Assembly (NCBI RefSeq): GCF_000383235.1
Contig: NZ_KB910928.1
Span: forward strand, 1-64,000
Direction of reading: 5' to 3'
Length of the DNA: 64,000 nt
Source: Bacillus sp. 123MFChir2
Lineage (GTDB): Bacteria > Bacillota > Bacilli > Bacillales > Bacillaceae_G
Shown: in pieces, positions 18,283 to 60,019 of the stretch
How the letters are laid out: every line of letters starts with the position of its first letter
Numbering within the stretch: the first letter of the stretch is position 1
Notes under the pieces: generated by a model
What the model saw: only the letters and a program-made list of their open reading frames with translations
Database searches by the model: none
Told to the model about the DNA's origin: nothing
Program-made: the position numbers and the translations under genes

Positions 18283-18405
18283 ACCTCCTCATAATTACTA
18301 AGACTCGCCAAAACGAGGTAGACATACAATGTCTTTTAGGAACCTGTCCTGCGCGGTTGTAGTATATAGCAGTTTAGGTGCTATAAACTATAACATAGAG
18401 ATGTT
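18283..18405 (-). promoter_or_regulatory. L21 leader (probable autoregulatory mRNA structure)
   Basis: The 5' untranslated region of rplU carries paired segments, for example GACATTGTATGTC and further stems around CAGGACAGGTTCC. Bacillus rplU genes have a conserved L21 leader RNA at this place (family knowledge). I infer the type from position and hairpins and did not fold it. Confidence 0.55.
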
Positions 18406-25973: not shown

Positions 25974-26026
25974 TTAAATATGACCTTTATCTTTTAAACT
26001 GACGAATTTATGGTCACCAATAATAA
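25974..26026 (-). CDS. radC: radC, third exon (C-terminus)
   Basis: 53 bp that complete RadC after the second intron. Joined to the A left at the end of exon 2 the sequence reads IIIGDHKFVSLKDKGHI and stops with TAA at 25974, matching the conserved RadC C-terminus. It begins directly after the CACTAT end of the group II intron, which fits the family rule that introns end in A-pyrimidine. The exon boundary was placed by requiring GUGYG at the intron start, AY at the end, and an open frame. Confidence 0.9.
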
Positions 26027-26086
26027 ATAGTGATAGGTAAGAAAAAACCACGACTTTACTCGTTTGGACTTCTTTTCCCCCACTTC

Positions 26087-26120
26087 ACACCGTACGTGAG
26101 ACTTTCACCTCATACGGCGT
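26087..26120 (-). other. Group II intron domain V (RI-B)
   Basis: The 34-nt hairpin starts ACGCCGTATG, has a GAAA loop, and ends ACGTACGGTGT. This is the catalytic heart of the ribozyme; the triad is CGC. It lies 17 bp after the maturase stop. Confidence 0.9.
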
Positions 26121-26137
26121 TCCATCAATTCAATTAT

Positions 26138-28009
26138 TTACGTTAATCCCAATTTTTCTCTAAAACCTAGAACCTTTTCCCAAGTTACTTTTCCGACCAT
26201 GGAATAATCTTTTGAACTGTGAATCATTTGATGGCAATGTTCATGCATGGATGCAAGGTTAGGAACTCGATTTACTTCTTCTATGGGGAGTTTTGGGTTG
26301 ACATGGTGTATGTGTACATCATCCCCCTGAAGTAACTCTTTACATACTCGACATCTTCCTTTATCACGGTTAAAGGCATAGGCTCGATTCATAAAATATT
26401 CAAAGTTGTACAATTTCCCTTTATGTCCGATTTTGATAATCTTGGACCAATTCAAGCTGAGGAGCTCATCCGCTCTTACTTTAACAGGCTTTTTATTAGT
26501 TCGGCTCATATAAATTTGTCTACCCCGTTCGGTGTACGGTGTTTCGCTAGGACTTTTATTTTTAGGCTTTTTCCACCTACAAAAATCTAGCCTTGTGACA
26601 CCTATTTTCAATTCGTTGTATTCAACCATTGGTATTTTGGTTTCGTACTTTTCGTGGGCTGACCGTAGATTGTCCACTTGTTTTGCAGGTATTTTATAAC
26701 CTCCATGCCTTCGGAGTTTTAAATATGCCGCATAGTGGAGTTTATCAACATACTTTTTCATGTACACATTCACTTTCGTTGTACATTCGTAATATTGAAT
26801 TAGCCCTCTAATCTTAGAGTTGATGAGATTAATCCAGTGAATCAGGTCTTCTTTCCGTGTTGCTTTTTTGATTTTCTTAATCGTTTTATGAATCTCATTT
26901 ACCTTATCTTTTAACCGTTGTTGATTTGGCTTACTGACGAGAATATGTCCATTTTTCGCCTTGCCCTTGATTGCCTTGATTTCAAAGCCAAGAAATTTAA
27001 TTGGTCGTCTTCGTATATCTGTTATGAGCGTCTTTTCTTCTGACAATGTCAATTTCAACCGCTCTTTTAGATATTTTGTTATTCTGTACTTCCATTTCTC
27101 CGCATTCCATTTAGAGTTCGTTATGAGTACCCAATCGTCTGCATATCTTACCAAATAAGTTTCTTTTAAGCGTGTTGTTTTCCGTAATCTTTCGAACTGT
27201 TTGGACTTTTGTGCATACGGATAGTTTGTTTTCTTATTTTCCCATTCTCTTGTTACCCATTGGTCAAATGTGTGTAGATAAGCATTTGCGAGTAGCGGAG
27301 AGATGATTCCTCCTTGAGGTGTACCAATTGGGTTCTCTTTTAATTCATCCATGATCCCAGCTTTCAACATTGCTTTAATTATCATGAGGACTCGTCTATC
27401 CCTAATTCCCATATTCCATAATTTCTTAATGAGAATCGTATGGTTAACACAATCGAAGAATTTGCTAATATCTCCTTCGATAATCCAATAGTGTCCCGTG
27501 ATATGAACGATGTCAGTTGTTCGAACTAATGCCATACTGGAATCTCTCATCGGTCTGAATCCATATGAATGATGGAAAAACTGTGCCTCAAGAATTGGTT
27601 CAATAATTAAACGAACACACTCCTGTATAACTCGGTCGATAACACTTGGTATTCCTAATGGGCGTAACTCTTTGGAATTTGATTTTGGAATGTACTTTCT
27701 TTTAATAGGTTCTGGACGATAATTCCGAAAGCTTTCTTGTACGAGTTGTACGACTTTTGGGTAATCTTTTTGAAGAATGTCTGGTTTCATTAATTTGTGG
27801 TCACTTCCAGCCGTACGACTTCCCTTATTCGCTTTAATACGATGGATAGCCGTTAGTATCGTGACTTCACTTGTCATTAGTTCCAATAAATTTTTGTGTC
27901 CAGACGATTGTCCCTTTTGTTTTATACTTTCGAAACTTTTATTATATAATTCGTCCTGTTTATCTTTTAATTCTTGTTCAGATTTTAGATAGTTAGATTC
28001 TTGTTCCAT
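26138..28009 (-). CDS. Group II intron maturase/reverse transcriptase with HNH endonuclease (RI-B)
   Basis: Multifunctional intron-encoded protein that assists splicing and mobilises the intron by target-primed reverse transcription. 623 residues: RT domain (about 45-385) with catalytic Asp180 (EGDISKFFD), [13 protein letters not shown] and the YADD box at 289-292; a maturase/X domain (about 400-480); and a C-terminal HNH endonuclease (about 550-610, CRVC...HIHHVNP...MHEHC). No frameshift or stop is seen, so the element looks competent. AAGGAGG precedes the ATG. Confidence 0.95.
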   Translation of the reverse strand: MEQESNYLKSEQELKDKQDELYNKSFESIKQKGQSSGHKNLLELMTSEVTILTAIHRIKANKGSRTAGSDHKLMKPDILQKDYPKVVQLVQESFRNYRPEPIKRKYIPKSNSKELRPLGIPSVIDRVIQECVRLIIEPILEAQFFHHSYGFRPMRDSSMALVRTTDIVHITGHYWIIEGDISKFFDCVNHTILIKKLWNMGIRDRRVLMIIKAMLKAGIMDELKENPIGTPQGGIISPLLANAYLHTFDQWVTREWENKKTNYPYAQKSKQFERLRKTTRLKETYLVRYADDWVLITNSKWNAEKWKYRITKYLKERLKLTLSEEKTLITDIRRRPIKFLGFEIKAIKGKAKNGHILVSKPNQQRLKDKVNEIHKTIKKIKKATRKEDLIHWINLINSKIRGLIQYYECTTKVNVYMKKYVDKLHYAAYLKLRRHGGYKIPAKQVDNLRSAHEKYETKIPMVEYNELKIGVTRLDFCRWKKPKNKSPSETPYTERGRQIYMSRTNKKPVKVRADELLSLNWSKIIKIGHKGKLYNFEYFMNRAYAFNRDKGRCRVCKELLQGDDVHIHHVNPKLPIEEVNRVPNLASMHEHCHQMIHSSKDYSMVGKVTWEKVLGFREKLGLT

Positions 28010-28726
28010 TGCGATTCCTCCTTATTGGGAGAATGCAAGGTTTTAATCAGGTGTGCTCAAACGGCTTCCCTAACAAATTGGTTTAACTTTATAATTGGAC
28101 TGACTATGCCCCTTCGCTCCATTCCCATTACAGAAATTTCGTCACTACTACGGGCTGCTGTCCCATAGATTCAATTGTCATTTCCTCCAATTTAGATGCA
28201 TTGAGTTTAACTCCCCTTATCATCATCCTCTATGGTTCCGCTGTTCCTTACGCTTTAGCTTTCCGTTACCATTTTAGCTGTCCTCTTTGACCCGTTAACC
28301 ATCTTTTTGCCCGCTGTTGGTAGGACGCAAGACACTATTCCATTATTGGATTAGTATAGATTTTGCAACCACAAATACAAAACCCACGATTAAACTTCTT
28401 TTACAGAAGCAAGAAACTTCAATTCGTTTCCTTCTACCTTTACGAGCCGTACATACGAGGATTCCTGGCGAGTCAGCATGATGGTCTTATAGCCTCCCGC
28501 TTACTTCACTAACCACTTCTCAGGTCTGTTTTTCAGCGCCTTTACCGAGCTTCGTACACAAATGTAGTTAACCATTTATGCACGTCGGAGTTTCAGAGCA
28601 TTGTCACCAACATTTAACAATGAGTTGGAATTTCACCAACCTATTCAAGCGTAAAGTTCAAAGGTAAGTACCTTTGCCTAGCTTTGTTGCGTATTTCTAC
28701 GCAGATTGTCTAGGAACAACGCACAC

Positions 28727-28814
28727 TATGATCGAGAATTTCAATCCCAATAATTTTCCCGCATTCTACAAGTCTTTTCGTGACTTCAATATCTTCTCTG
28801 CTTGGCGTGGGGTC
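28727..28814 (-). CDS. radC: radC, second exon (88 bp between two introns)
   Basis: 88 bp between the two group II introns. Joined to exon 1 it reads [15 protein letters not shown], then [14 protein letters not shown], which is the RadC sequence following HPSG. It supplies the Ser and Asp of the JAMM motif. On its own it has no start or stop. The two boundaries leave 29 codons plus one base, completed by TT of exon 3. Confidence 0.92.
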
Positions 28815-28874
28815 GTAGGATAGAGAGCATGCGCCTTATTTGGTTACCCAAATAGGTCTCACAGTCCCCTCCTC

Positions 28875-28908
28875 AGAACCGTACGTACAGCTTTCACTGT
28901 ATACGGCT
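28875..28908 (-). other. Group II intron domain V (RI-A)
   Basis: The 34-nt hairpin starts GAGCCGTATAC, has a GAAA loop and ends GTACGTACGGTTC, a canonical domain V. The stop codon of the intron's own ORF (28894-28896) falls inside it. Confidence 0.92.
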
Positions 28909-30783
28909 CGCCAGTTGACTAATCGAAATTTGCTTCTCATGATGGTCATGATGGCATTTAAAGCATAGGACGATCGTTTTCCTTTGTCGTTCAATCATAA
29001 TCTTGTCCAAATACTTTAAATTTCGTTTCTTTTTCAAGTCCTTTAGTTTTCTAATGTGATGAACTTCCATCTGACCTTCTGTTGCACCGCACGCTTCACA
29101 TTTATTAGCCAACAAACGCTTTTCAAATTCTGTTCGCCTAGAATATTTCATCGTATTCACGTATGAGTCTATTTCTGGTGTATCAGCTTTAATCGCACCT
29201 TTATGTTTCGGCAGGTCTTTTAATTTCACAAACTGATGAAGTCTTTCATTACCTTGTTTATCTTTTCTTGCTAAACAAAGTACTCCTTGTTTGTGGGTTC
29301 TCATGCTTGTAGCCACTTTCATTGAGGTGCTTCTACGTTTATTAGCTATGGTTTTAATGAAACTACTCTCTGCTAAATAAAACATCTTATCTAAATGATG
29401 ATAATTATTCGCTAGCTTGTAGTAGTTTGCGATTCCTCGTAGTTCAGCGTTATACGTGTGCAAAATTTCCAATTCCGAGTTATTTATTAATTTTGTCCGA
29501 TGTACAATTTTGAAGTTATCTAAGTTTCCATATCCGTTTTTGACAGCAAATTCATTGATTTTCTTCTCTGGGATCTCTAGCTTTATTGCACCTGAGAGTG
29601 TTCTCTTCTTCAATGGGTGGTTTTGATTCTTATACGTAACCCTTTTGACCTTCACTTCATTCCATCTGCGAAATTCGTAACCTAAGAAAGATATTGGATT
29701 CTCAAGATATGTTATGAGTGTTTTTTCTTCACTTAGATCAAGGCGGAGTTCCTCTTTAAGAAAATGTTTAATCCTTTCCTTAACATTCCATGCACTTTGT
29801 TTAGAACCAGCTATCCCAATTACGAAATCATCAGCGTAACGAACATATTTCATTCTTTGATAATTATTATCCATAGGGTCTATTGATGAAATTTTTATTT
29901 GCTTCGATTTCAGTTCTTGAATGTTGTTTACAAGGTCTGCTCGCCCTATCCACAATTCATGTCCGTTTCTTTCATCAAGTTTCTTAACCTTTTGTGAAAG
30001 GGTTCTGATATCTGAACGAATCGCAACGTATTCTTTATTTCTCGCCCTAATATTTCCTTTTTCGAAATTCTTCATTTGTTTTCCCATGAACAAATCAAAC
30101 TCATGAAGATAAATGTTAGCTAATAAGGGAGAAATAATACCGCCTTGTGGTGTACCGCTATATGTCTTATGGTAAATCCAATTTTCCATTACGCCACAAG
30201 TAAGTGCATTATGAATAAGGAGCAGGAAACGGCGATCATTTATTTTCTTTGAGATAAGATTTACTAGTACGGTATGGTCAATATGGTCGAAGAAGCCTTT
30301 AATATCTCCTTCAATGCACCATGTTAACCCTTTCCACGTATTCTTGATTTGAGACAGTGCTGTATGACAGCTTCTCCCTTCTCTAAACCCGTGAGAGTTA
30401 TCAGAGAATGTCGGTTCATAAACATTTTCTAAAATCATTCTCATTACTTCCTGTACCAACTTATCTTTAAAGTTAGGAACTCCTAGAGGCCTCTTTTTGC
30501 CATTTGCTTTTGGAATATAAACTCTTCTTACAGGTGCAAAACGAAATGCTCCATTCTTGAGTTGGTCAATGATTTCATCAATCTTTTGTAAGCTAAAACC
30601 ATCGATTGTTTCTTCAGATGTTCCTTTTGTTAGGTTCCCAGCATTCGGATATAGCTTTGCATATGCTTCAATCCATAGTTCTTTTTTATACATGAGACGG
30701 TAACAATCCGTTATTGGTTTACCATTTTGAGAAGCTTTCCTTATAACGTCCAACTGATGAAATGGATTTGTTGCCATATTCAT
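28894..30783 (-). CDS. Group II intron maturase/reverse transcriptase with HNH endonuclease (RI-A)
   Basis: Intron-encoded protein of 629 residues. RT domain with [20 protein letters not shown] (about 91-110), catalytic Asp160 (EGDIKGFFD), [15 protein letters not shown] and YADD at 316-319; a long insertion (about 235-300) precedes YADD. A maturase domain and a C-terminal HNH endonuclease (CEAC...EVHHIRKL...CFKCHHDHH, about 560-615) follow. Open throughout. AAAGGAG lies close to the first ATG; an in-frame ATG two codons on is equally possible. Its last codons overlap domain V, which is unusual because the ORF normally lies within domain IV. Confidence 0.95.
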
Positions 30784-31348
30784 GACTCCTTTATCATTGA
30801 CGTTAACATCAACCTGTCCCCCTTCCCCCTGCTAAACTCATTACAAGCAAACGTTGGGTACTACGAGGACTCCGTTACCATATGCAATTTTCATAGACCT
30901 ATGTCTAATAGCCAATTGGCGCTTGCACTTAGATAATCCCTGCATTATGACATAATTTTAGATACGTGATGGTTAGGTATCCCTTTCGACGGTTTCCTCT
31001 AGTGGAGGATTGAAGGACAAACCTTACTATGGACAGGGCTCTGGCGATACCCAGCAGACATAGCGGAGATATGTCTCCCATTTTGTCCTCATTGCCTGTT
31101 AACTATCGTAGACAACGGCGCACCCATCGCTCATTCGTCTAGGATTCAAGCAGTGTAGCTTTTACCATACATCACTTGGTCTGAAGAACTGACTCGACAT
31201 TAGATAGTTTTGTCGTCTTTTCTCCTTTTCACATCATGCTATGTTCCCTCTATAGGTTTCCCCTCAAGGTAAGATGCTGACCATAGAACATTGTAAGGAG
31301 TCCTAGTTTTCTAAGAAAACGCTAAAATTACGCACCTTGCAGGCGCAC

Positions 31349-31885
31349 GCCCGAAGGATGATTATGAAGACAAATAATAGAGGCAGCAGCGCGGCGAAAT
31401 GCTTCCTTGAAGATCTCGCGCGGATGCACAATCGAGGCATTCAAACTTCCAATAAATACTGTTTGTCGATGCATCACTTGATTTTTCGTATTTAAATATA
31501 AACATACAAAATGTTCCTGCTGTAAAAAGCGCATCTCTTCCATCATATAACGTGCGCAATCTTCTGGATTACGAATACTATATCTATTTTGATACTCTAA
31601 GCGTACCATTCTTCGTCCAAGTTCAAAAGCAGCAATAAGTTGGGAGGCTTTTGCCACCCCAACGCCATGAATGCTTGTCATCTCTTCAATTGTTGCATCC
31701 TTTAACATTCGTAATCCATCAAAATAATGCAAAATTCGGTTTGCTAATGTTAAGACCGACTCCTCTTTTGAACCTGTTCGAAGTAATATAGCGAGAAGTT
31801 CTGTGTTTGATAAGCTGCTTGCTCCTTCTAGCAATAAACGCTCCCGTGGTTGATCTTCTTTCACAACATCACGAATGCAGCTCAT
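31349..31885 (-). CDS. radC: radC, first exon (179 codons)
   Basis: RadC/UPF0758 protein, JAMM/MPN metalloprotease-like fold, historically called a DNA repair protein with unclear function. Residues 1-80 hold a helix-hairpin-helix-like region (TIEEMTSIHGVGVAKASQL). The MPN domain then runs up to HNHPSG, where the first group II intron interrupts it. Read without splicing, translation would end six codons into the intron (VRLQGA, 185 residues). Spliced exons total 678 bp, giving 225 residues, the normal length. AAAGGAGG precedes the ATG; maf lies 13 bp upstream. Confidence 0.95.
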
Positions 31886-37924: not shown

Positions 37925-38178
37925 AAAAACTCCCTCATCCAAAAGGACGACGGAGATCGTGGTACCACCTTTTTTTACAGGCGTAAATAGATACACTACA
38001 CCTGTACACTTAACATCTGTAACGGGTTACCCGGTTTCTCCTACTTTCACTGCGAGTTCAAAGAAACTGCTCAAGGGCGACCTTCCAACACTACCATCTA
38101 AGAAATCTCACAGCAATTGATTTCCCTCTCTGAAGATGTAGGACGTTGTACTCTTCCCTATCAACGCATTTATATATA
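37925..38178 (-). promoter_or_regulatory. T-box riboswitch upstream of valS
   Basis: The T-box sequence AAGGTGGTACCACG is at 37958-37971, followed by a terminator stem (CTCCGTC ... GAGGGAG, then a T-run) at about 37925-37956. The upstream 200 nt contain stem I features, including GTGAAAGTAGGAGAAA in which GUA (Val) is a candidate specifier. Uncharged tRNA would stabilise the antiterminator and allow valS transcription. A TATAAT at 38188-38193 is the likely -10. Confidence 0.9.
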
Positions 38179-59945: not shown

Positions 59946-60019
59946 TGGAGCGGGTGAAGAGAATCGAACTCTCGACCAGAGCTTGGAAGGCTCTTGTTTT
60001 ACCACTAAACTACACCCGC
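59946..60019 (-). tRNA. tRNA-Gly(UCC)
   Basis: Acceptor GCGGGTG/CACCCGC, anticodon stem AGAGC/GCTCT with loop CTTCCAA (anticodon UCC), T-loop TTCGATT and encoded CCA. First of a two-tRNA transcript. Confidence 0.96.

Follow-up and report, generated by a model that had tools for sequence, protein, structure and literature searches.

The window, a stretch of 64,000 nucleotides from Bacillus sp. 123MFChir2 (contig NZ_KB910928.1, positions 1 to 64,000), carries a radC gene that is interrupted twice, which raises the question of whether this is still one gene or what is left of one. On the minus strand, where all window features described below lie, and in the order maf-radC-mreB, three radC exons (537, 88 and 53 nt) are separated by two complete group II introns, here called A and B. 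Exon 1 (31349..31885) covers codons 1-179, ends with the motif HNHPSG and scores above the cut-offs of the RadC models of Pfam and NCBIfam, its end being placed by the empty site of four relatives; exon 2 (28727..28814), from codon 180 to the first base of codon 209, and exon 3 (25974..26026), which includes the stop codon, are delimited by the joined frame and the empty sites. A preliminary description of this DNA had given these exon and intron coordinates, and they are right to the base: the Rfam matches to domains 5 and 6 independently end at both 3' splice sites. Its sum of 678 bp in a single frame holds as well, the joined exons encoding 225 residues and a stop with no internal stop codon, and the alignment to relatives that it proposed gives a full-length match to the RadC of all four (83-86% identity). 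We consider it probable that the window radC is one three-exon gene and that its two introns, which appear to belong to separate lineages, are most likely spliced out to leave a normal RadC.

Both insertions have the hallmarks of complete introns. Intron A (28815..31348, 2534 nt, GTGCG...CCTAC) follows codon 179, at what we call site 2, and intron B (26027..28726, 2700 nt, GTGTG...CTAT) follows the first base of codon 209, at site 3. The ends of both fit the consensus of bacterial group II introns (5' GUGYG, 3' AY), and Rfam model RF00029 (domains 5 and 6) scores above its gathering score in both, directly before the 3' splice sites (intron A, 28815..28911, 62.6 bits, fold z -5.0; intron B, 26027..26122, 57.7 bits, fold z -3.0). 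Intron B also matches RF02004, and its D1-D4-5 match in Rfam (28486..28629) reaches 55.3 bits. A 5' end of intron B at 28724 (GTGCG) was rejected: it would give D-H-(S/R) in the window and in locus L110, whereas the end at 28726 (GTGTG) yields a conserved D-H-(I/L)-I-I-G in the window, L110 and L114. The two intron proteins both retain YADD, score above cut-off with TIGR04416 and contain RVT_1. That of intron A (28894..30783, 629 aa) has reverse transcriptase, maturase and HNH domains; that of intron B (26138..28009, 623 aa) is a reverse transcriptase with an HNH match slightly under the Pfam cut-off, the Intron_maturas2 match being found in the intron A protein only. LtrA, the closest among solved structures to the intron A protein, matches it strongly over the whole length (E 1.5e-137) and matches the intron B protein partially and more weakly (E 3.3e-48), so we take A and B to be of different classes; the two proteins are also widely separated in the protein tree. 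We take LtrA itself to be an ML-type intron protein. Searches of plasmid records gave 0 matches for intron A and 10 records for intron B, each over ~50-75 nt near the intron 3' end.

An assembly artefact, in which the introns were wrongly joined to radC, is hardly credible: the identical insertion bases are filled in 16 other loci at site 2 and in L110 and L114 at site 3, and the introns found there are 83% (L035), 86% (L114) and 88% (L110) identical in DNA to those of the window and are not copies. In the mechanism that we propose, an LtrA-like intron A would have homed between radC codons 179 and 180, and intron B, of a different class, into codon 209 behind its first base, each presumably arriving by RNA-mediated retrohoming from other Bacillales; ribozyme splicing, aided by the introns' own maturases, would then remove both from the radC transcript and give the 225-residue RadC.

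The relatives show what the gene looks like when it is empty. Among the best 80 of 411 loci of the exon-1 search, the closest is that of Ectobacillus funiculus (L001 = G001; 87% over exon 1), and 74 of these 80 are uninterrupted from HNHPSG to the stop codon, the exceptions being L035 (site 2 filled), L069 (another intron) and L008, L047, L056 and L057 (other elements). The four relatives aligned above (G001, G131, G069, G378) read through both insertion points without interruption, and the maf-radC-mreB order is common to the window and the intron-free relatives; both introns were therefore gained in the window lineage, or lost in all four others.

A plain disruption, meaning that recent introns sit in a dispensable gene, splice poorly or not at all and leave radC beginning to decay, is the main rival, and we judge it unlikely, if worth keeping in mind. 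The radC frame is predicted to stop after 185 residues in the unspliced product and at 213 if intron A alone is removed; according to the Tn6188 paper (PMC3788773), radC is not essential in either B. subtilis or S. pneumoniae. Intron A also pairs weakly with its exon: its candidate EBS1 (CTCCGC, 31063..31068), chosen by alignment and scoring, pairs at 3.5 of 6 with the terminal hexamer of exon 1 and is among the three weakest of 16 site-2 introns. The candidate EBS2 of intron A (GGGTG, 31121..31125), chosen in the same way, makes 4.5 of 5 pairs with the exon bases CATCC, and the candidate EBS1 of intron B (TGTGGT, 28368..28373) pairs with the exon 2 terminus at 5.0 of 6, the latter from three sequences whose shuffles are not significant. 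Finally, exons 2 and 3 carry a slight surplus of amino-acid changes, with pN of 0.105-0.132 between the window and its relatives and of 0-0.096 among the relatives (~110 sites), a small excess that gives a hint of decay only. Yet the changes in these exons are mostly silent (pS 0.69-0.73), although an insertion too young to have left a trace would look alike, the three exons remain open and can be joined in one frame, and the intron family covaries with its host exons.

This last point comes from the wider set of radC introns. Joining the exons gives an open RadC in 28/28 loci, 26 of them complete; L102 and L114 were recovered only in part, beyond another large insertion, and stay open over that part. 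The mean pairing of EBS1 with IBS1 of the own host was equalled by 0/1000 shuffles at site 2 (17 introns) and by 2/1000 at site 1, in a test that re-chose the best column in every shuffle and ignored relatedness; all 17 site-2 introns entered the test, and per-intron scores cover 16 of them, L093 having no base in the column. Covariation of EBS2 with IBS2 across the site-2 family was not significant (reached by 126/1000 shuffles), nor were the EBS1 shuffles at site 3 and at a further position, site 2b (three sequences each). Of 35 introns, A and B of the window included, six lack a protein, and the exons around them are open; hosts of ORF-less radC introns include L098, L099, L103 and L113. 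L098 and L099, which share an ORF-less site-2b intron, differ in the downstream exon with pS 0.53 and pN 0.015. From the in-frame joins, the covariation of EBS1 with the host exon, the open exons around protein-less introns and the pS and pN of this downstream exon, we infer that the radC introns as a family splice. Splicing could conceivably act as a switch, one or both introns being retained or removed according to conditions so that RadC is made only at times. The presence in one short gene of two introns that each encode a protein, one of them (A) inside the HNHPSG...D region, would allow such control as a possibility only, but the sequence bears no sign of regulation and the gene order is the same in intron-free relatives, and we regard a switch as very improbable.

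How often radC is colonised was surveyed by searching the joined RadC against 397 Bacillales genomes. Group II introns interrupt radC in 27 of them: site 1, which follows codon 158, is filled in 11, the site-2 region in 19 and site 3 in 2. Five genomes have two introns, combining site 1 with the site-2 region (G140, G203, G275, G364) or with site 3 (G386), which puts figures on the word "rare" of the preliminary description. Its central claim, two frame-preserving group II introns in one conserved chromosomal gene, is borne out by the Rfam matches, the intact intron proteins, the four empty-site relatives and 33 further radC introns. The window's own combination, sites 2 and 3, was not found among the 397 surveyed Bacillales genomes. 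Junctions divide the site-2 region into site 2 proper (HNHPSG|DP, the site of intron A), filled in 16 genomes, and site 2b, 8 nt upstream, filled in three (G152, G314 and, as its second intron, G275). A domain 5/6 match is present in 33/33 introns of 28 loci, that is, the 27 genomes and L069, which is from another order. When 261 genomes of that order were searched with the intron A protein, 24 had a match at E <= 1e-100, and 10/19 further loci lay in radC, eight of them at site 1 and two at site 2, with domain 5/6 in 10/10; these counts are a lower bound, the query finding relatives of the intron A protein only. One locus of this order, L180, has an additional RT-bearing intron at site 2b. 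Among the 27 intron-bearing Bacillales genomes, eight have a further RadC-domain gene (G062, G076, G140, G213, G248, G312, G314, G389), and radC may be less needed there; two have a RadC-domain fragment only, and 17 no further RadC.

At three of the four positions, the introns appear to have a common origin. In a tree of 50 intron proteins, those from site 1 (10), site 2 (12) and site 3 (2) each form one clade (100/100), and all sampled intron proteins from outside radC fall outside these clades. The tree was built from open frames of >=400 aa, 50 of 62 after removal of 12 same-locus duplicates; site 2b has no protein in the main set, and four site-2 introns whose frames are too short (L089, L092, L097, L113) are absent, as is L114, whose site-3 protein is broken. 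Long branches among the degenerate site-2 proteins, of which the program warned, leave the inner order and the number of decays unsure. Synonymous differences are lower in the intron proteins than in radC for 73/74 same-site pairs (frames >500 aa only); between the window and L110, for example, they amount to 0.48 for the intron B protein and 0.84 for radC. Because the intron proteins are less diverged at synonymous sites than the gene that houses them, this suggests that introns moved between hosts after the hosts had diverged.

Some of these introns seem to have lost the means to move. YADD is kept by seven of the 17 introns at site 2, intron A of the window among them; nine have an intron-A-like open frame without YADD and one has no protein; the YADD-less site-2 frame of L091 is otherwise near full length, but frameshifted. 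Of eight YADD-less frames scanned, four have a maturase domain (one of these also the RT model) and four have neither. No protein is found in 3/3 site-2b introns of the main set and in 2/12 site-1 introns, so that YADD or the whole protein has been lost at three of four radC sites. Some radC introns thus seem, from their frames, to be no longer mobile and to have turned resident, and the site-2 introns without YADD or without protein resemble organelle introns. Taken as a whole, radC is rather likely to be a long-term nursery of group II introns in Bacillales, with introns at four sites (a single clade at each of three), apparent spread from host to host, and YADD-less or protein-less introns at 3/4 sites where RadC stays open. 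If so, radC would repeat in bacteria the path by which the introns of organelles became permanent, with the window as an early stage in which two mobile introns of different classes share one gene. For testing, the radC genes of Bacillales provide introns in intact, YADD-less and ORF-less form at shared sites together with empty-site relatives, a series that would open the transition from mobile to splicing-only introns to direct experiment in bacteria.

Several parts of this picture have precedents. A 2015 review (PMC4424553) states that group II introns of bacteria mostly reside outside housekeeping genes and that ORF-less ones are rare in bacteria; it lists O.i.I2 of Oceanobacillus iheyensis as a group II intron in radC, which was thus already a known host, and presents it as the sole bacterial intron known to have a degenerate protein. 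Intron A shares its gene with O.i.I2, an intron of the ML class, and is itself closest to LtrA. However, the O.i.I2 protein is described there as lacking YADD, whereas both window proteins have it and hence are not of the degenerate, splicing-only type, and the window radC has a second intron of another class. A conserved repair gene is also the host of the recA group II introns of Geobacillus kaustophilus, cited in that text (PMC4424553). The intron B protein has relatives at 88-90% identity only in radC among the 397 genomes; those ranking next share 49-58% identity and are located elsewhere, several of them in recA (49-52%), a different gene and site. As a separate observation, recA of G127 (L168; C2:65000-75000) appears to be split by two group II introns, whose proteins are ~50% identical to that of intron B. 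Several group II introns per bacterial gene, some ORF-less, as in radC, are reported in work on Trichodesmium (PMC4649490); there, in a cyanobacterium, splicing was shown in vivo, whereas for radC it is deduced from sequence. A search of the open-licence PubMed Central literature found no description of the recurrent radC pattern. It is this wider pattern (four sites, apparently one lineage at each of the three tested, decay at three of four) that would be the part surprising to specialists.

Introns are not the only elements to enter radC at this place. L008, L047 and L057 each have an element in radC, from ~8534 and two codons beyond the site of intron A; it combines a pair of tyrosine-recombinase-like genes with a small third one, and by this gene set we take it to be a Tn554-family transposon. 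A Tn554-type insertion in the window itself was rejected: the only long proteins of the insertions are the two RTs, group II domains are present and tnpABC is not. According to the Tn6188 paper, Tn554-family transposons strongly prefer a conserved radC site in many Firmicutes, so that they and the radC introns target the same few codons; yet the former are DNA transposons with tnpABC that interrupt radC, while the window elements are introns (PMC3788773). A strongly conserved motif in a dispensable gene would presumably be a stable and forgiving target for elements of either kind, and introns would be able to persist in radC because splicing restores the RadC protein.

Other interruptions were seen along the way. 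In L056 (from ~8520) and in L177 (after a site-1 intron), a tyrosine-recombinase element lies directly after HNH, at or adjoining site 2b, and the two elements have near-identical starting bases. The radC pieces are ~18-60 kb apart in G012, G059, G082, G114, G126, G225 and G062 (at ~residues 131-156) and in G033, G078 and G398 (at ~residues 171-174), which suggests large integrated elements in radC. Counting the in-frame stops where large elements break radC was dropped as a control, as such stops may stem from alignment overhang. A number of genomes (e.g. G001 C35:53409-53789) have a second, shorter RadC-domain gene that often matches ~residues 96-225, and in G358 (C1:3521243-3521908) radC matches over its full length, lacks an intron and contains a single in-frame TAA. 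Elsewhere in the window, also on the minus strand, Rfam gives three ordinary matches: a T-box leader (37940-38173) upstream of the gene for valyl-tRNA synthetase, an L21 leader (18291-18368) and a tRNA (59949-60019).
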